Positions 12,655-44,823 of a stretch of 64,000 bases of DNA are shown here, piece after piece. The position numbers and the translations under genes are program-made. The notes beneath the pieces are model-generated. The model was not told where the DNA came from. It worked only from the letters and a program-made list of their open reading frames with translations, and made no database searches. Numbering within the stretch: the stretch's first letter is position 1; every line of letters begins with the position of its first letter. The stretch covers positions 124,001-188,000 of the forward strand of contig NZ_CP038015.1 in assembly GCF_004367585.1 (NCBI RefSeq), read 5' to 3'. Source of the stretch: Paenisporosarcina antarctica. Lineage in GTDB: Bacteria; Bacillota; Bacilli; Bacillales_A; Planococcaceae.

Positions 12655-12912
12655 AATATTCAAAAGCTTTGATGAGGAGAAGTACATAAGGCGCGCTCTT
12701 TAGAGAGGACCACCACTGGCTGAAAGTGGTCTGAGCAAAAGCACTATGGAAATGCACCTCTGAGCGCTCAGCTGAACCTATTAGTAAGCGAGCCGTATCG
12801 TCACGTTATAGACGCCAAGTGGGAAGGGTCGCAACATACTCCTTCCAATCAGAGTGGAACCGCGCCATTATAGCGTCTCTGTCAGTTACTGACAGGGGCG
12901 CTTTTTAGTTTG
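12655..12912 (+). ncRNA. T-box leader, cysteine-specific
   Basis: All T-box parts can be seen: GATGAGGAGAAGTAC start block, AGAGAGG of stem I, specifier codon TGC (Cys) at 12753-12755 in GAAATGCACC, the T-box AGAGTGGAACCGCG at 12851-12864, and a terminator (12872-12901 stem, then TTTTT). Uncharged tRNA-Cys would stabilise the antiterminator and allow transcription of the downstream cysteine genes. The leader controls cysE and cysS, linking cysteine synthesis and charging. Confidence 0.95.
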
Positions 12913-20167: not shown

Positions 20168-20194
20168 ATATTTTGTTGTAAATAATTATTTGTA

Positions 20195-20320
20195 ATTTGT
20201 ACCGTAGACAGTAGGGGCGACTTGTCGCATAATGATCCTACCGAGGACATGCATTCAGAATCTTTTTAAAGATGACGTTTCAGCCCCTGGTCTATTTAAT
20301 AGTCCGGGGGCTTTTCTTTT
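20195..20320 (+). ncRNA. L10 ribosomal leader with attenuator
   Basis: Position directly before rplJ and conserved-looking blocks (ACCGTAGACAGTAGGGGC, CCTACCGAGGACATGCATTC) fit the Firmicute L10 leader bound by the L10(L12)4 complex. It ends in a long stem 20282-20312 (AGCCCC..GGGGGCT) followed by TTTTCTTTT, a transcription attenuator. Confidence 0.8.
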
Positions 20321-20359
20321 GGCGGTATAAATGACTCATTCTAATTAGGAGGTGTCAAG

Positions 20360-33160: not shown

Positions 33161-33204
33161 ACTATTAAAAACTAATCATATAAATTTTGAGGAGGACTTC
33201 TCTA

Positions 33205-34392
33205 ATGGGTAAAGCTAAATTTGATCGTTCTAAAACACACGTAAACATTGGTACAATTGGTCACGTTGACCATGGTAAAACAACTTTAACTGCAGCAATC
33301 GCAACAGTTCTTGCTAAACGTTCTGGTGGTACTGCAATGAGCTATGCACAAATTGATAACGCTCCTGAAGAAAAAGAGCGCGGAATCACAATCAACACTT
33401 CTCACGTTGAGTATGAAACTGCAACTCGTCACTATGCACACGTTGACTGCCCAGGACATGCCGATTATGTTAAAAACATGATCACTGGTGCTGCACAAAT
33501 GGATGGCGGAATTTTAGTAGTATCTGCTGCTGACGGCCCAATGCCACAAACACGTGAGCACATCCTTCTTTCACGTCAAGTTGGTGTTCCATTCTTAGTA
33601 GTATTCATGAACAAATGTGACATGGTAGATGACGAAGAATTACTTGAATTAGTAGAAATGGAAGTTCGTGATCTTCTTTCTGATTATGATTTCCCTGGCG
33701 ACGACATTCCAGTAATTAAAGGTTCTGCTCTTAAAGCTCTTGAAGGCGAAGCAGAATGGGAAGAAAAAATCGTTGAATTAATGGACGCTGTTGACGCTTA
33801 TATCCCAATGCCTGAACGTCAAACTGACAAGCCATTCATGATGCCTGTTGAGGATGTATTCTCAATCACAGGTCGTGGTACTGTTGCTACTGGTCGTGTA
33901 GATCGTGGACGTATTAAAGTTGGAGATCCTGTTGACATCATCGGTATCACTGAAGAACCGAAATCAACAATCGTAACTGGCGTTGAAATGTTCCGTAAAC
34001 TTCTTGACTATGCAGAAGCTGGTGACAACATCGGTGCTCTTCTTCGTGGAGTATCTCGTGATGATATCCAACGTGGACAAGTTCTGGCTAAGCCGGGTTC
34101 AATTACTCCACATACTGAATTTAAAGCTGAAGTTTATGTTCTTTCAAAAGAAGAGGGTGGACGTCATACTCCATTCTTCACTAACTACCGTCCACAGTTC
34201 TACTTCCGTACAACTGACGTGACTGGTGTTTGTAATCTTCCTGAAGGCGTTGAAATGGTTATGCCTGGAGACAACATCGAAATGACTGTTGCTCTTATCG
34301 CTCCAATCGCGCTTGAAGAAGGTACAAAGTTCTCTATCCGTGAGGGTGGACGTACTGTTGGTGCTGGTGTAGTTGCGACTATCACTAAATAA
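33205..34392 (+). CDS. tuf: Elongation factor Tu
   Basis: 395 aa. Delivers aminoacyl-tRNA to the ribosome. G1 GHVDHGKT at residues 19-26, G3 DCPGHADY, G4 [11 protein letters not shown] 33205 after GGAGGAC gives [16 protein letters not shown]; an in-frame start 18 nt upstream lies before the SD. In B. subtilis rpsJ comes soon after; here 12 kb of other genes intervene. Confidence 0.98.
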
Positions 34393-34406
34393 TTAATAAC
34401 TTAAAG

Positions 34407-34442
34407 AAGATCTTGCCGGGACGCTGGTAAGATCTTTTTTTG
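34407..34442 (+). terminator. Terminator after tuf
   Basis: AAGATCTTGCC and GGTAAGATCTT (one G-U) followed by TTTTTTTG. Closes the str operon. Confidence 0.85.
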
Positions 34443-34600
34443 TCTAAAATTTGACGGAGAGATGTCTGAATACTGCGGAATATACACCTCGCCAACTGAA
34501 ATAAATCACAAATAAAACTTAAATGGCATACATAAAGCAACTAACACTTCACAATACAGCAGCTCAGCGAAAATCAAATCAATATAGTCAATCGGGGTAT

Positions 34601-34742
34601 TTTTGTGGGAGAAATTGGGCGAGCGGGAATAAAGTGATTGCCAAAGGGAATAAATCGATTTGAACGGGAATAAACAGTATTCGAATGGGAATAAATACCT
34701 CACCAACGGGAATAAATTAAAATGAACAGGAATAAACATAGC
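34601..34742 (+). repeat. Six-unit 20-21-bp repeat element, copy A
   Basis: Six units each end in GGGAATAAA (starting at 34625, 34646, 34666, 34687, 34708; the sixth, AGGAATAAA, at 34728). They are separated by 11-12 variable bases, giving steps of 20-21 bp. The left border is TTTTGTGGGAGAAATTGGGC and the right border ATAAACATAGC. The same borders and unit number recur in inverse orientation at 44681-44823. Not a CRISPR: repeats are 9-13 bp and there are no cas genes. Function unknown. Confidence 0.8.
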
Positions 34743-34822
34743 AATTCAACAAATCACACGCATGTAATGATCTGCTGAATTAAAATACTTAGAAATTGTT
34801 CCTACATAATAAGTTTTTTTAG

Positions 34823-34850
34823 AGCAGATATGTCATCTGCTTTTTTTTTG
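34823..34850 (+). terminator. Orphan terminator left of the ilv promoter
   Basis: AGCAGAT and ATCTGCT around ATGTC, followed by nine Ts. The stretch 34443-34822 has no protein gene, only repeat element A, so this would end an untranslated transcript or guard against read-through from tuf. Confidence 0.75.
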
Positions 34851-34937
34851 TATTTACTCAATACTCACTTTTTTAACCTGTAATCCTAAAATGTCTAAAA
34901 CTTTTTTAAAATTATAAAAACATTATTAGATTAACAA

Positions 34938-34951
34938 TGAAAACGGTTACA
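34938..34951 (+). promoter_or_regulatory. cre site (CcpA) upstream of ilvB
   Basis: TGAAAACGGTTACA fits the consensus TGWAANCGNTNWCA at every position. It is centred about 85-90 bp before the predicted transcription start, a position for activation rather than block. In B. subtilis CcpA activates ilv-leu from an upstream cre; the same role is inferred here. Confidence 0.8.
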
Positions 34952-34997
34952 ATTTTAATGAATATTCATAATTAACAAATTATTTAAAATATATTGA

Positions 34998-35026
34998 TTG
35001 ACACCCTTTAAAATAGACGTTACGAT
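34998..35026 (+). promoter_or_regulatory. Promoter of the ilv-leu operon
   Basis: Perfect TTGACA, 17-nt spacer, TACGAT. It yields a leader of about 510 nt with the T-box in its second half. Confidence 0.65.
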
Positions 35027-35214
35027 AGCAACAATTTACAAATACCAAATGCAAATTAACTGGTCAATATGTAAATTTAAAAGTTCACCAACGGATTGAT
35101 TTTTTATTCTTGAGTGGAATGTTCGAAGGATTTTATTCATACAATAAAAACGGAAATGCTAACCAATTGATTTTCTCAACTGGATATTAATAAACAATCA
35201 TATAAAGACAATTC

Positions 35215-35505
35215 AATGACGAGGTTAAAGTAACGGAAATTGTATTCTCAGAGAGCCGACGGTGGTGCAAGTCGGTAATACACCCATTTACGACATCCCC
35301 TCCGAGTGGAGTGCTGAAAGGTTCATACCGATTAGGCATTCCCGGTAACCGTTCCAATCAAGGTTATCGTTATCAACGGACTAAGCATCGCGCTTGTCCA
35401 TGAGGCTGCGTTTACGCAGTGAAATAGGGTGGTACCATGAAGCTTTTTCATCCCTATACAAAGAATATGTTTCTTTGTGTAGGGATGGAAAAGCTTTTTT
35501 ATTTT
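35215..35505 (+). ncRNA. T-box leader of the ilv-leu operon, probably Ile-specific
   Basis: AGAGAG of stem I (35251 region), specifier region ACATCCCCTCCGAG, T-box AGGGTGGTACCATG at 35426-35439, and a 25-bp terminator hairpin (35441-35496) with a long T-run. Aligning with the Cys T-box of this window (TGC-A-CCTCTGAG against ATC-C-CCTCCGAG) places ATC (Ile) at 35295-35297 as specifier. CTC (Leu) in the same stretch is the alternative. It couples operon transcription to tRNA charging. Confidence 0.9.
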
Positions 35506-35544
35506 TTATTCCACCGAGGCATAAGAAAGAAGGAGGCGGAAGGT

Positions 35545-37271
35545 TTGGAAGCAAGTTCTAAATTTGTAGAAAAAGCGATTCAGAAACTACCGGGTAGGGG
35601 TGCAGATGTACTGATTCAATCTTTAAAAGACCAAGGTGTAGACGTTATTTTCGGTTATCCAGGTGGTGCGGTGCTACCGATTTATGATGCATTGCATCAA
35701 AATCCAATCCGTCATGTGCTTGCCCGTCATGAACAAGGTGCAATACACGCAGCTGAAGGGTATGCCCGTGTATCAGGAAAAACGGGAGTCGTCATCGCTA
35801 CATCAGGACCGGGAGCAACGAACCTGGTGACTGGAATTGCAGACGCTATGCTCGATTCAATTGCACTGGTGGTATTTACAGGGCAGGTAGCAAGTGGAGT
35901 AATTGGGACAGATGCTTTTCAAGAAGCCGATATCTTAGGAATCACACAACCAATTACAAAACATAGTTACCAAGTAAAGAACGTGAAAGATTTGCCTCGA
36001 ATTATCAAAGAGGCATTTTATATTGCTTCTACTGGTCGACCAGGACCTGTCGTTGTGGATATACCAAAAGATATTTCAACGAACCTGTTTGTAGCGACTA
36101 ACGCAAAAGATGAGGACGTGTACTTACCAGGCTACCAACCAACGACTAGTCCTAACTATCTTCAAATCCAAAAGGCAGCACAGACACTGTCTCAGGCGAA
36201 GAAACCGCTAATCTTAGCGGGTGCGGGTGTCTTAACCGCCAAAGCGACTAAGGAGCTAAAGGAATTTGTGGAACGTAATCAAATTCCAGTTACAAATACG
36301 TTGCTTGGACTTGGTAGCATAGCCGGAAATCATAAGTTATTTCTTGGAATGGCTGGAATGCATGGAACGTATACAGCAAATACAGCCATTTGTGAATGCG
36401 ATGTCCTACTGAATATTGGTGCACGGTTCGATGATCGGTTAACAGGAAATCTCGCACATTTTGCACCTAATGCGAAAGTAATCCACATCGATATTGATCC
36501 AGCTGAAATTGGTAAGAATGTTCCGACAGCAATTCCGATAGTAGCTGATGCGAAACAAGCACTGCTAGAGCTGTTGAAACAATCATTCGAAGCACCGGAT
36601 ACAACAGAGTGGTTAGACTGTTTGTCGCAAAACCAGATAGACTATCCTCTGCAGTATAACGCAGAAAAACAACAGGGAATTCTTCCACAGCAAGCGATTC
36701 AATTGATACATCGCATAACAGGAGGAGATGCAGTTGTCACAACTGATGTTGGACAGCATCAAATGTGGGCAGCGCAATATTACGCATTCAATCATCCGGA
36801 TAACTGGGTAACTTCAGGGGGGCTCGGGACGATGGGCTTTGGATTCCCTGCAGCAATTGGGGCACAACTTGCAAAGCCCAATTCCAAAGTTATTGCGATT
36901 GTAGGAGATGCTGGATTTCAAATGACCTTGCAGGAATTATCCCTGCTTCAGGAACTTCGCCTTCCTGTTAAAGTAGTCATTTTAAATAATCAATGCCTTG
37001 GTATGGTAAGGCAATGGCAAGAAACCTTCTATGAAGGACGCTTTTCTCAGTCTCTAATTCATGTGCAGCCAGATTTTGTGAAATTGGCGGAAGCTTATGA
37101 TATTAAAGGATACAAAGTAGAGACGCTAGAAGAAGCGGAAGTTGTATTCGCAGAAGCACTTAATTCAAATGAACCAGTATTAATTGATTGTCGGGTCGTG
37201 CAGATGGAAAACGTTTATCCAATGGTCGCACCAGGGAGAGGTTTGAACGAGATGATCGGGGTGAAAGGTGA

Positions 37272-37275
<4 letters not shown>
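35545..37275 (+). CDS. ilvB: Acetolactate synthase large subunit
   Basis: 576 aa ThDP enzyme making acetolactate or acetohydroxybutyrate, the first common step to Val/Leu/Ile. The activating Glu is in [18 protein letters not shown]-binding and C-terminal ThDP motifs ([12 protein letters not shown]...[11 protein letters not shown]) are present. TTG 35545 lies 8 nt after GAAGGAGG. An in-frame ATG at 35437 would start inside the T-box and translate the terminator, so it is rejected. Followed by ilvH with a 4-bp overlap. Confidence 0.95.
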
Positions 37276-40381
<3,106 letters not shown>

Positions 40382-40414
40382 AAGATAAGTGAATAGGAAA
40401 AGGAGGAATTTCTA

Positions 40415-41515
40415 ATGGAAAAGACAATAGCAGTATTGCCCGGAGACGGAATCGGACCAGAAGTTACAGAAGCAGCAGTCAAGGTGCTGAAATCCATTGC
40501 AATGCGCTATGGACATACTTTTCATTTAAGATATGCTGCAATTGGCGGTATAGCGGTTGATCAATATGAAAATCCGCTGCCTCAGGAAACGATTGAGGTT
40601 TGTGAAGCTAGTGACGCAATCCTCCTTGGTGCAGTCGGAGGTTCTAAATGGGATCAACACCCCTCTCATTTGCGACCAGAGAAAGGCTTATTGAGTATCC
40701 GAAAGCATTTTGATTTATTCGCAAATATCCGACCTGTAAAAGCGATTCCTTCACTTTTAGATTCGTCACCATTGAAAGAAGAAGTGGCCAAAGAAGTCGA
40801 TATGGTTATTGTTCGTGAATTGACTGGTGGTTTATATTTCGGAGAACCAAAACGTAGAAACGAAAAATCGGCAGTCGATACACTGGTTTATACCAGAAAA
40901 GAAATCGAGCGCATTGTCAATCATGCTTTTGAAATCGCGCGCACGCGAAGAGGGAAGCTTACTTCAGTTGATAAAGCCAATGTGTTGGAAACGAGTAAAC
41001 TATGGCGTGAAGTTGTCGAAGAACGCAAGAATGCTTATCCTGATATCGAAGTGGAGCATATGCTAGTTGATTCGGCAGCCATGAAATTGATCACCAATCC
41101 TAGAGGGTTTGATGTTATGGTCACTGAAAATATGTTTGGTGATATTTTAAGTGATGAAGCATCGGTAATCACTGGATCTCTTGGAATGCTACCTTCTGCT
41201 AGTCTTCGTGCTGATGGATTCGGTCTCTACGAACCAGTACATGGCTCTGCGCCAGACATCACAGGGCAAAACATAGCAAACCCATCTGCAGCCATTTTAT
41301 CAGCTGCCATGATGCTAAGACATTCTTTCAACCTTCATTCAGAAGCGTCGGCTATGGAAGAAGCAGTGATGGGCGTATTGGAAGACGGTTATTGTACGGT
41401 TGACCTGTTCAAGGACGGTAAACGCGTCGTCTCGACTGATACATTCGTTACAAAAGTCATTGAAGAGCTTGAAAGAGAATTTGTATCTGAACACATCATG
41501 TTCTCTTATATTTAA
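40415..41515 (+). CDS. leuB: 3-isopropylmalate dehydrogenase
   Basis: 366 aa NAD-dependent oxidative decarboxylase. VLPGDGIGPEV at the start, RELTGGLYFGEPK in the middle, and the NAD-binding GSAPDITGQNIANPSAAILS near the end. Leucine pathway third step. SD AAGGAGG; leuC follows after 18 bp. Confidence 0.96.
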   Translation: MEKTIAVLPGDGIGPEVTEAAVKVLKSIAMRYGHTFHLRYAAIGGIAVDQYENPLPQETIEVCEASDAILLGAVGGSKWDQHPSHLRPEKGLLSIRKHFDLFANIRPVKAIPSLLDSSPLKEEVAKEVDMVIVRELTGGLYFGEPKRRNEKSAVDTLVYTRKEIERIVNHAFEIARTRRGKLTSVDKANVLETSKLWREVVEERKNAYPDIEVEHMLVDSAAMKLITNPRGFDVMVTENMFGDILSDEASVITGSLGMLPSASLRADGFGLYEPVHGSAPDITGQNIANPSAAILSAAMMLRHSFNLHSEASAMEEAVMGVLEDGYCTVDLFKDGKRVVSTDTFVTKVIEELEREFVSEHIMFSYI

Positions 41516-41533
41516 TGGGAAGGAGCGCTTCGA

Positions 41534-42952
41534 ATGCCGAAAACGATTATTGAGAAAATTTGGGAACAACATATTGTTTACGAAGAACAAGGTAAGCCAG
41601 ACCTCCTTTATATAGATCTTCATTTATTACACGAAGTCACTTCCCCTCAAGCATTTGAAGGCTTAAGGCTTAATGGGCGGAAAGTTCGTCGTCCGGATTT
41701 ATGCTTTGCCACGATGGACCATAATGTACCTACGAGAAACCGTGATACCATTAAAGATCCAATTTCTCGCAAGCAAATTAAAACGTTGCAGGATAATTGT
41801 GATGAGTTCGGCGTACCGCTTGCAGGGATGAATCATCCTGACCAAGGGATTGTACACGTCATTGGACCAGAGTTAGGATTAACACAGCCAGGCAAGACCA
41901 TCGTCTGTGGTGACAGTCATACATCAACACATGGAGCATTCGGTGCTTTGGCGTTCGGCATCGGGACGAGTGAAGTGGAGCATGTACTGTCGACTCAAAC
42001 CCTTTGGCAATCAAAACCGAAGACAATGGAAATTCGTATCGATGGGGAACTTGGATTCGGCGTTACGGCAAAAGATGTCATTCTAGCGATTATCGCGAAG
42101 TTTGGAATTGATATGGGAACGGGTCATATTGTAGAGTACACGGGAGAAGTAATCCGTAATTTTACGATGGAACAACGTATGACAATTTGCAATATGACCA
42201 TTGAAGCGGGAGCTCGTGCAGGGTTGATTAGCCCTGATGACAAGACGGTTGAATACTTGAGAGGCCGTAGACATGTTCCAAAGGGAGACGCTTTTGATAA
42301 AGTAGCAGCGCAATGGTTATCGCTTGCGACGGACCAGGAAGCGGAGTATGACGTCTCTATCTCGATACATGCAGATGAAATCTCTCCGTTTGTCACTTGG
42401 GGAACAAATCCTTCCATGGGAGCTGGTATCGAAGGTCATGTACCATTTGCATCTAGTTTTGAAAAACAAGCAGATCGTGAAGCATTGCAGCAGGCACTAG
42501 CTTATATGAATCTAGAAGAAGGTACACCATTGTCAGCTATAGACATCCAGCACGTGTTCATTGGTTCGTGCACAAATGCTCGCTTAGGGGATTTGCGGGC
42601 GGCTAGCGCGGTGGTGGAGGGTAAAAAAGTGCATCCATCTGTCACAGCAATCGTTGTACCTGGGTCCGCATCTGTAAAAAGACTAGCGGAAGAGGAAGGT
42701 TTGGATAAAATATTCCTAGATGCTGGATTTGAATGGCGTGAGACCGGCTGTAGTATGTGTCTAGCTATGAATGAAGATGCGGTTCCTGCAGGGGAACGCT
42801 GCGCTTCAACTTCTAATCGAAACTTTGAAGGGCGTCAAGGAGCGGGATCAATGACACATCTGGTCAGTCCAGTCATGGCTGCAGCTGCTGCTATAGAAGG
42901 TCACTTCACGGATGTCCGGAAGTATATGCATGAACCAGTGTCATCGTCCTGA
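41534..42952 (+). CDS. leuC: 3-isopropylmalate dehydratase large subunit
   Basis: 472 aa aconitase-family subunit. The 4Fe-4S cluster cysteines are Cys346 (GSCTNAR), Cys406 and Cys409 (GCSMC). Isomerises 2- to 3-isopropylmalate together with LeuD. SD AAGGAG. Confidence 0.96.
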
Positions 42953-42979
42953 ATTTGATTACCTGAAGGAGGTCTACAG

Positions 42980-43570
42980 ATGAAGCCAATCAATAAAATT
43001 TCAAGTGTGATGACGCCACTTGACCGGAAGAACGTAGATACTGACCAAATTATTTCAAAAGAATTTTTAAAACGTATTGAGCGCACGGGTTTTGGTAAAT
43101 ACTTATTTCATCATTGGCGCTTCAATCCAGATGGAACAACTGTAGAAGATTTCGTTCTCAATGATCAGCGCTTTAACGGTTCTGAAATTTTAGTCGCACA
43201 AGAAAATTTCGGTTGCGGCTCTTCTCGTGAACATGCACCATGGGCCATTCAAGATTACGGTTTTAATGTGGTCATTGCACCGAGCTTTGCTGATATTTTT
43301 TATAATAACTGTGTGAAAAACGGCATTCTACCGATTCGTCTGTTGAGTCATGAAGTGGAAGAACTCATTAAAAAAGGAAAGCACGAAGAGTATAAACTAG
43401 AGGTAAATTTGGAACAGCAAACTGTTTTAGGGCAGGATGGAACTCGTTTAGAGTTTGAAATTGATCCTTATTGGAAAGAAATGCTTCTAAAAGGATGGGA
43501 TGAGATAGAGCTAACATTCCAACACGAGTCTCAAATCACGGCATATGAAGAAAGAATGCAGCAGGCGTAA
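42980..43570 (+). CDS. leuD: 3-isopropylmalate dehydratase small subunit
   Basis: 196 aa aconitase swivel domain. VDTDQIISKEFLKR and FGCGSSREHAPWAI are the substrate-binding signatures. Partner of LeuC. SD AAGGAGG. The frameshifted ilvA follows. Confidence 0.96.
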   Translation: MKPINKISSVMTPLDRKNVDTDQIISKEFLKRIERTGFGKYLFHHWRFNPDGTTVEDFVLNDQRFNGSEILVAQENFGCGSSREHAPWAIQDYGFNVVIAPSFADIFYNNCVKNGILPIRLLSHEVEELIKKGKHEEYKLEVNLEQQTVLGQDGTRLEFEIDPYWKEMLLKGWDEIELTFQHESQITAYEERMQQA

Positions 43571-43597
43571 TTATAACTAATAGAGGAGATGGTTTTG

Positions 43598-44589
43598 TTG
43601 GGAATTCATATAGCACAGCAGGTTTATACAGCGCATTTGAAAAGTTAGCACCAATTGTTCACCGTACTCCGTGTAAACAATCGAGCACATTGAACAGAAT
43701 TACGGGCAGTGAAGTATTTTTAAAACTTGAAAATCTGCAGAAAACAGGGTCTTTCAAAGTTCGGGGAGCGTTCAATAAAATCAGTCAATTATCTGATGAA
43801 GAATGTGCAAAAGGGATTATTGCTGCTTCGGCAGGAAACCATGCACAGGGCGTGGCTCTTGCGGGTAGAGAAAAAGGACTGCAAGTAACGATCTTTATGC
43901 CGGAAACTACACCAGAAGCGAAAGTGTTGGCAACTAGGCAATATGGAGCGGATGTCAGATTGATTGGAAAGAACTTTGAAGAAGCATACGCAGCGTCCAA
44001 AAAAGAGCAACTCTTAACCGGAGCTGCATTCGTCCATCCCTTCGATGATTTGGCTATCATTGAAGGTCAAGCAACGGTTGCAATGGAAATGCTGCAGCAA
44101 TGTCCAGACTTAGATACCATCGTTGTTCCAGCTGGGGGCGGAGGATTGCTCGCAGGAACAGCGATTGCGGTTAAATTGATTTACCCGTCCGTCCGAGTCA
44201 TCGGCGTGCAGGCTCAAAGTGCATCCGCAATCTCCTCAATTTTTCATGGAACAACTAATTCACCCATCCCGTTCTCGCCTACAATGGCAGAAGGGATTAA
44301 TGTGAAAGATCCTGGCAAATTGACAACAAAAATCATCCAGTCTTATGTGGACGACGTCATCACAGTTAGTGAACAGGAAATTGCTTCATCTATTCTCTTT
44401 ATGCTGGAGCGTGAAAAAATGCTTGTGGAAGGAGCGGGAGCAGCAGCTGTTGCAGCCGTTCTTTATAATCACTTGCCATTTAACTCCGAGAAAACCGGCA
44501 TTATCGTTAGTGGCGGTAACTTTGATATCGGCAAGTTGGAAGCATGTAGAAAAATTTCGATGAATTTAGGTAAAGCAAATTCTTTTTAA
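43598..44589 (+). pseudogene. ilvA: Threonine ammonia-lyase, frameshifted near its start
   Basis: PLP-dependent threonine deaminase, short form. The main frame has the PLP-lysine block GSFKVRGAFNK, the glycine loop PAGGGGLL and an intact C-terminus, but reaches only back to TTG 43690 with no SD. The SD (GAGGAG, 43583) serves TTG 43598, whose frame reads MGIHIAQQVYTA and then stops at 43646. The missing family N-terminus (AFEKLAPIVHRTP) continues in the main frame. A one-base loss or two-base gain near 43633-43640 explains this. There is no C-terminal ACT-like regulatory domain. It could be inactive, or an artefact of sequencing. Confidence 0.75.
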
Positions 44590-44596
44590 CCAGTTA

Positions 44597-44626
44597 AACC
44601 TTCGCTTAAATGCGGAGGTTTTTTGT
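44597..44626 (+). terminator. Terminator of the ilv-leu operon
   Basis: AACCTTCGC and GCGGAGGTT (one G-U) around a 6-nt loop, then TTTTTTG. It closes the operon 8 bp after ilvA. Confidence 0.85.
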
Positions 44627-44680
44627 TTTCGTTAAGAATGTATAAACTTTTGTGATTCTGCTAGTAGGAGGTAACGGGTA

Positions 44681-44823
44681 GCTATGTTTAATCCCGTTCA
44701 TTTTGATTTAATCCTGTTTGATTAGTGCTTAATCCTGTTCACACATAGTTTAATCCCGTTCGCGGTCGCTTTAATCCTGTTCAACACGAGTTTATTCCCG
44801 TTCGCCCATTTTCTCCCACAAAA
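44681..44823 (-). repeat. Six-unit 20-21-bp repeat element, copy B (inverted)
   Basis: Read on the minus strand: TTTTGTGGGAGAAAATGGGC, six units ending in GGGAATAAA or (A/G)GGATTAA, then ATTAAACATAGC. Borders, unit count and step match copy A at 34601-34742, while most of the unit linkers differ. Together the two copies bracket the ilv-leu unit between its own promoter region and terminator. The rest of 44627-44955 shows no gene. Confidence 0.8.

Follow-up and report, generated by a model that had tools for sequence, protein, structure and literature searches.

Several kinds of short direct repeats arranged in rows are known. The closest to the elements treated here are the STAR elements of staphylococci, whose function is given as unknown in the excerpt of PMC3532100. 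In this excerpt, STAR elements are interspersed intergenic direct repeats with a short conserved core and variable or locus-specific spacers; their copy number is variable, their loci are different in each species, the core is T(G/A/T)TGTTG(G/T)GGCCC(C/A) and at least 40 bp lie between cores (PMC3532100). The two elements considered here, E1 and E2, bracket the ilv-leu unit in a stretch of 64,000 nucleotides of the chromosome of Paenisporosarcina antarctica (NZ_CP038015.1, positions 124,001 to 188,000; the whole stretch is called the window, and positions are counted in it unless otherwise stated). They follow the same concept as STAR elements, with another core (GGGAWTAAA or AGGAWTAAR) and a narrower spacing, i.e., steps of 20-21 bp for E1 and E2 and of 19-21 bp for their family, called A below. 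Unlike STAR elements, the arrays have cores that differ between and within genomes, and six units are commonest.

Plasmid iterons and ParR-type centromeres are direct repeats about two turns apart to which proteins bind cooperatively. E1 and E2 are likewise helically phased direct repeats (steps of 20-21 bp); the difference is that here many copies are chromosomal. By eye, none of the neighbours listed beside the arrays is recognisable as a rep or par gene; no family search was made on them. With a core of 9 bp and a spacer of 11-12 bp, the arrays differ from the long identical repeats of CRISPR, and no cas gene was recognised by eye in the open reading frames (ORFs) around E1 and E2. The 190-bp repeat of Bacillus subtilis is another known repeat; the search of the open-licence literature gave nothing on it and, in that same literature (subscription papers being outside its scope), no description of these arrays in Bacillales was recognised. 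The abundant TAACTGA repeats of Beggiatoaceae are also short intergenic direct repeats of unknown role, but they are heptamers, often beside start codons (excerpt of PMC4679880). Finally, the TTF-I sites (Sal boxes) behind mammalian rRNA genes form a row of sites for one DNA-binding protein (excerpt of PMC3772059). This likeness is a functional analogy: TTF-I is eukaryotic, no homologous protein is proposed, and the arrays described here also stand behind many protein genes.

We tentatively read E1 and E2 (probability about 0.48) as copies of an interspersed non-coding docking array for putative sequence-specific DNA-binding proteins. About six asymmetric sites of 13-14 bp would stand 20-21 bp apart, i.e., two turns of B-DNA, so that all sites would lie on one face of the helix. 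Each site would be occupied by a DNA-binding protein with sequence specificity, the lineages having either different proteins or re-specialised versions, and neighbouring proteins would cooperate in a stiff nucleoprotein rod of about 12 turns. More tentatively, such a rod at gene ends, including those behind rRNA operons, might act as a back-up roadblock or insulator that protects against read-through and against converging polymerases, an idea that comes from the analogy with the clustered TTF-I sites. The following features are read directly from the sequences: the family, the step, six as the commonest count, the conservation of the cores above that of the linkers, an intergenic placement that favours convergent and avoids divergent genes, and the presence of other cores at that step in other species. 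The fixed two-turn step, the asymmetric motif, the held cores and the number of about six units in two families would suit proteins lined up along a single face of the DNA.

E1 (34601..34742, + strand) was found by reading the sequence and by the sequence-blind scan. It consists of a degraded unit 0, which forms its left border, and of six units, whose cores occupy 34625..34736 (+ strand); these are exact at 34625, 34646, 34666, 34687 and 34708, and the sixth, at 34728, is AGGAATAAA. E2 (44681..44823, - strand), found in the same two ways, is inverted and has the same build; its six cores occupy 44687..44799 (- strand), with exact GGGAWTAAA at 44687, 44749 and 44791. The unit steps are 21/20/21/21/20 in E1 and 21/21/21/21/20 in E2. 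The core is exact in five of the six units of E1 and in three of the six of E2, the remainder being AGGAWTAA(A/G). GGGAWTAAA occurs 10 times in the window, for 1.67 occurrences expected, and 8 of the 10 are inside E1 or E2; the sequence-blind scan of the window (steps 7-59) flags E1 and E2 and no further arrays. This agrees with the first-pass annotation, which had described six units each, a 20-21-bp step and opposite orientations. That annotation had also taken both borders to be kept. The left one, TTTTGTGGGAGAAA, does recur across the A family and resembles a degraded extra unit, 19-20 bp ahead of unit 1. The right one, CATAGC, is common to E1 and E2 only, among the copies whose right end was read. 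Position 34601 is not the true left edge, since a leader lies upstream (34557..34600, + strand, CAGCAGCTCAGCGAAAATCAAATCAAT...CGGGGTAT); it is worn in E1 and intact in other copies, and was recognised by eye from its match to the intact leaders, AGCGYAGCGAAAACCAAACCAATTAGCCCC...GGGGTATTTTTGTGG.

E1 and E2 are not alone on the host chromosome (G000), for which a genome-wide search had been proposed at first. BLAST with a 250-base query containing the full composite unit gave 40 matches on the chromosome with E 0.01 or better. These and the pattern matches were grouped by reading into 21 A-type loci (i.e., arrays with the E1/E2 type of core), B-type loci and one unit-less match of 25 bases; tandem copies count as one locus and the A locus at 2490 kb is very degraded. 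By this grouping of our own, E1 and E2 are 2 of the 21 A-type loci. The conserved motif, obtained from 91 units of 16 A arrays, is TGAAC(G/A)GGAWTAAA, 13-14 bp long and followed by 7-8 freer bases; the site, given as TGAACRGGAWTAAA, is asymmetric. The steps are 21 (83), 20 (46) and 19 (7), where the unit chains, here and in G043 below, permitted steps of 19-22. Six units are found in 17 of 28 A runs, five in five, seven in three, four in two and eight in one, the degraded unit 0 being included wherever it was within two mismatches. It should be noted that 11 of the 17 six-unit runs are tandem copies within four loci; outside the tandem loci six units are still commonest (6 of 16 arrays). At 2780.7-2782.9 kb of the chromosome (L068 4121-6281, reversed strand), two tandem array pairs of the same orientation flank an ORF of 320 aa that is NERD-domain-like by eye.

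Many A copies carry the leader, whole composites of 235-236 bp stand in tandem (five copies at 3058 kb, three at 2540 kb) and A copies share position-specific linkers. These composites and shared linkers speak for a selfish or neutral STAR-like repeat, i.e., one in which slippage multiplies units, copying spreads the elements, the two-turn step comes from the generating process and the host draws no function. The gain and loss of sites between species and the very long arrays of one genome, both described below, point the same way. We consider this explanation rather unlikely, although it is the main rival of the docking array. Slippage alone would conserve both parts of the unit equally; however, the linkers drift faster than the cores, as the first-pass annotation had proposed. 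In columns defined by E1 and compared with 12 other single-copy A loci, identity is 0.87 for cores, 0.67 for the four preceding bases and 0.52 for linkers; in columns defined by E2 the values are 0.80, 0.80 and 0.48. With either reference, the identity of cores is above that of linkers in all 12 comparisons (A2490, A2524, A2778 and the tandem loci were omitted). An earlier count gave 0.86 for cores vs. 0.43 for linkers over 36 pairs; it selected units on the basis of the core, a bias towards cores, and left out one of 10 arrays (five units recognised).

Among genomes of the class, a pattern of three GGAWTAAA units has matches in 4 of 398, i.e., the host itself, the congener G005, G126 and G043, the last two belonging to other families than the host. 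G043 has 18 arrays, found by patterns that required steps of 20-21, with six units in 10 of them and steps of 21 (55), 20 (31) and 19 (1). Their cores are shared while the linkers mostly differ between loci, which again speaks against a selfish or neutral repeat, as does the recurrence of six as the most frequent number of units in genomes from two bacterial families. On viral contigs, the same three-unit pattern gave 4 stretches, none with the build of E1, and a viral origin was not retained: L122 is at the end of an ORF of 664 aa, L123 is coding-like by eye, L121 is a three-unit repeat, and L124 (12400-13000) has an array of CAGGATTAAA, in phase at about 21 bp with positions skipped, beyond a phage-type gene near the end of the stretch.

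The step was then taken without reference to any core. The sequence-blind scan looks for 6-mers repeated four times or 8-mers repeated three times, at any step of 7-59, and the step-blind figures are limited to four sets, i.e., 31 ilvA loci, 800 kb of the host family, the other-family scans and 400 kb of G018. The host-family sample (800 kb, i.e., 40 stretches from 20 genomes, G000 excluded) contains 16 clusters, with a main step of 20-21 in 12, of 40-42 in 3 and of 56 in 1; three sets of Markov shuffles of these 800 kb gave zero clusters. A cluster at the two-turn step or its double is seen in 8 of the 20 genomes. Cluster L194 and the step-56 cluster fall inside long ORFs, and those at L284 6701 and L192 10225 overlap the beginning of a called ORF. 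The 31 named loci around ilvA relatives have clusters in 2, both at 20-21. Of the 236 kb from 12 genomes of other families, among which G043 and G126 had been put because of the earlier pattern matches, G043 has two clusters, both at 20-21, G126 also has two, at 19-21 and at 51-52, and the remaining 10 genomes have no clusters; a further 357 kb from other families gave three clusters, none at step 20-21. Tandem repeats with steps of 50-51 bp (L291 44-967) and 51-52 bp (L211 8221-8434) were met in other-family genomes.

G018 was sampled further because its first stretch was rich. The 400 kb added contain 7 clusters, four of them at 20-21 and 41-42, the others at 46-47, 7-8 and 22. Very long arrays with a 21-bp step and 29-47 units of the TTCGTGCGGATAC type, are found on L192, L218 and L219 under spurious-looking long ORFs on both strands, and L218 (9316-9633) also has a tandem repeat, GGTCGAAAAATTTATCCTCGGCGC..., with a step of 46-47 bp, unlike the two-turn arrays. 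In 18 hand-picked arrays the steps are 21 (187), 20 (10), 18 (2) and 22 (1), where 18-23 was permitted. Cores differing at the same step are TGATAGAA, ATTTTTCCTACGT, GGTAGAATAAAT, GGCGATTA, TTCGTGCG, TCGCCAATA, GGATTAAA and GGGGCAAC; a further array, TATCTACGGTAA four times, is found in Bacillus mediterraneensis. Two of the named cores are less independent than their sequences suggest: TTCTATCG, from a second stretch of G001, is the G001 TGATAGAA type on the opposite strand, and TATTGGCG, from G025, is near G126 CGCCAATA on the opposite strand. Within the host family the two-turn step is widespread, and some other families have it too, whereas the core mostly differs. With cores held and the 20-21-bp step recurring with other cores in other genomes, the multi-site array at two-turn spacing suggested by the first reading is retained.

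The host itself has other core types. B-type arrays, with the core GCSGAWTAAA, are located behind rRNA operons: 23S and 5S are upstream in five of the six B-region stretches scanned, and the sixth array follows a protein gene, read as trpA. Among 8 B copies, six regular units are found in 4, five in one and at most one in three. Fragments resembling the 3' half of 5S rRNA (by eye) are seen on L061 and L060, past the rRNA terminator and adjoining worn B-type arrays. A single array of a third type, TTTTTACAACGT, turned up by chance at about 2500 kb, and the census is incomplete for other cores. Several core families per genome fit either paralogous proteins or, as in the main rival explanation, selfish repeat families independent of one another.

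As regards placement, 7 of the 17 G043 arrays with both neighbours called are between convergent genes, 10 between co-directional genes and 0 between divergent genes. The background, i.e., 299 gaps of at least 100 bp in host-family stretches, is 37 convergent, 202 co-directional and 60 divergent. The convergent excess has P 0.003 and the divergent lack P 0.02, with a background from another family and crude ORF calls. In G000, 16 of the 21 A loci were resolved by reading and none is divergent; in G018, the array at L192 8435 sits between divergent ORFs. Many arrays begin shortly past an intrinsic terminator (by eye).

Orientation may also be considered with respect to replication. In G000, dnaA is at 3797 kb and the GC skew changes sign between 1.51 and 1.70 Mb; counted manually, 18 of the 21 A loci are oriented with the replication fork. 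This would be expected of fork-arrest sites of the known RTP/Ter kind, but the bias may be explained by the bias of gene strands. Moreover, the RTP profile PF02334 is without a match (E 0.001) in 8 of the 10 genomes searched, G000 and G043 included (G018 has one match over the cut-off, G126 one below), and the search for A- and B-type arrays gave nothing near the terminus. The arrays found lie on the origin side, none of either type being found from 1.24 to 2.48 Mb; for A loci this gap has a P of about 0.01-0.04, tested after the gap had been seen. Known arrest sites are thus very improbable, and this candidate was rejected on the lack of RTP matches.

The opposite orientation of the arrays at the two edges of the block had suggested that the inverted pair marks a movement of the 10-kb block or allows it to flip. 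This suggestion has next to nothing left in its favour. The order tuf, ilv/leu, ilvA, ribosomal genes is conserved in Paenisporosarcina sp. TG20, Paenisporosarcina sp. OV554 and Planococcus koreensis (IlvA identity is 85% to TG20 and 79% to OV554), i.e., gene order is identical in relatives devoid of the array pair; TG20 is without the transporter gene after ilvA and has the ribosomal cluster directly next. E1 and inverted E2 have no identical run longer than 14 bp. The two are not sister copies, their identity (0.76) being barely above that of E1 to A278, at 278 kb (0.74), or to A2838, at 2838 kb (0.75). Block movement or flip was rejected because of the conserved synteny and the lack of long shared runs. 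As far as the sequences compared indicate, the block has neither moved nor turned relative to TG20, OV554 and Planococcus, and the bracketing of the ilv-leu unit looks like two independent copies in two intergenic gaps, the pair being incidental.

The orthologous gaps are variously filled. In OV554 and Planococcus, where they were inspected, no array is found at the site of E1 or of E2. The tuf-ilvB gap of TG20 holds a different tandem element with a similar leader, AACAGYAGCGYAGCGWAAAC, and 2-3 units per copy like GACCGATAA at a 21-bp step; these units were read by eye, the element being missed by the sequence-blind scan (k of 6, at least 4 units). In Bacillus sp. FJAT-22090 a long TTGCGA array stands behind ilvA, i.e., at the E2 site. 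It follows from TG20 and FJAT-22090 that different species can fill one gap with different arrays.

Two other natures were considered for the element. It might act in the transcript as an RNA element, e.g., as a sponge that binds an RNA-binding protein and includes the leader hairpin: cores are strand-asymmetric, CCAATT could pair with AATTGGG in leader copies, and some of these copies look like a terminator hairpin. However, Rfam has no match at the arrays (window and B-region stretches), a consensus structure computed from 15 of the 17 leaders found has -2.3 kcal/mol, none of its 8 pairs showing changes on both sides, many arrays are past terminators, and the two-turn step has no reason in this explanation. 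An RNA element is improbable and gained no support from the Rfam search or from this weak fold without covarying pairs.

Transposon ends or relics, or a miniature inverted-repeat transposable element (MITE), are still less probable. Tn7-like ends have tandem sites of 20-22 bp, and the TGTGGG start together with the tandem sites is reminiscent of them. On the contrary, the ends of E1 and E2 are not inverted repeats, their borders are not complementary and no target duplication is seen (by eye), and no transposase was recognised by eye among the ORFs near four tandem-array regions, the genome not having been searched for transposases. Intrinsic curvature by A-tracts was set aside, A5-A6 tracts being present in the G043 cores and absent from the A cores of G000 (by reading of the sequences).

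Several observations weigh against the docking array. (i) In the 20-40 kb sampled from each, 12 of the 20 host-family genomes have no two-turn cluster; at least 3 two-turn clusters overlap an ORF call, and unit counts in G018 reach the high values given above. (ii) The G000 chromosome holds at least 3 core families, which one housekeeping protein would not explain, and in 3 of the 8 B copies wear has left no more than one regular unit. (iii) Arrays are absent at orthologous sites in close relatives, so that no single array is essential. (iv) No phase tracking beyond the fixed step is detected, 0.65 of shuffled step orders drifting as little as the real one or less (0.08 without one array). (v) The direction of the array matches that of the upstream gene in 14 of 20 co-directional cases, which is a tendency only (P 0.058), and E2 counts against it. 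This count used 7 of 10 from G000, including the locus at 3142 kb, judged by an ORF of 69 aa; start codons placed by eye add the loci at 1240 and 2907 kb, and these other readings of three loci give 15 of 21 without 3142 kb (P 0.039) or 16 of 22 with it (P 0.026).

The neighbours of E1 and E2 are as follows. The ORF at 33187..34392 (+ strand), upstream of E1, we take to be tuf. Its intrinsic terminator (34403..34441, + strand) was seen by eye, being absent from the computed terminator list; it is about 160 bp upstream of E1, which was therefore wrongly placed just after it. Downstream of E1 are a terminator-like hairpin (34821..34843, + strand, computed list) and the T-box leader of the ilv/leu operon (35207..35458, + strand; Rfam RF00230, 95.6 bits). 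The 3' end of ilvA (43690..44589, + strand; ORF, with the TG20 relative cited above) faces E2, and the ilvA intrinsic terminator (44596..44621, + strand, computed list) is about 60 bp before the CATAGC end of E2. Elsewhere in the window, Rfam gives a second T-box leader (12660-12883) and an L10 leader (20184-20326).

In a wider and rather doubtful form, the proposal is that Planococcaceae and some other Bacillales possess an unnamed class of docking arrays, with about six sites two turns apart, mostly at gene 3' ends or behind rRNA operons, each core family being recognised by a separate member of a protein family that re-specialises fast; the arrays would be roadblocks or domain boundaries, i.e., a bacterial counterpart of the terminator clusters of rDNA. 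If this is true, one geometric rule (two-turn spacing, often six sites) would persist while the sequence of the sites is replaced between species, which would point to a protein-DNA system of fast-evolving specificity. It would also explain the repetitive intergenic stretches of these genomes in which spurious ORFs are called, and it has a bearing on the role of STAR-like elements.

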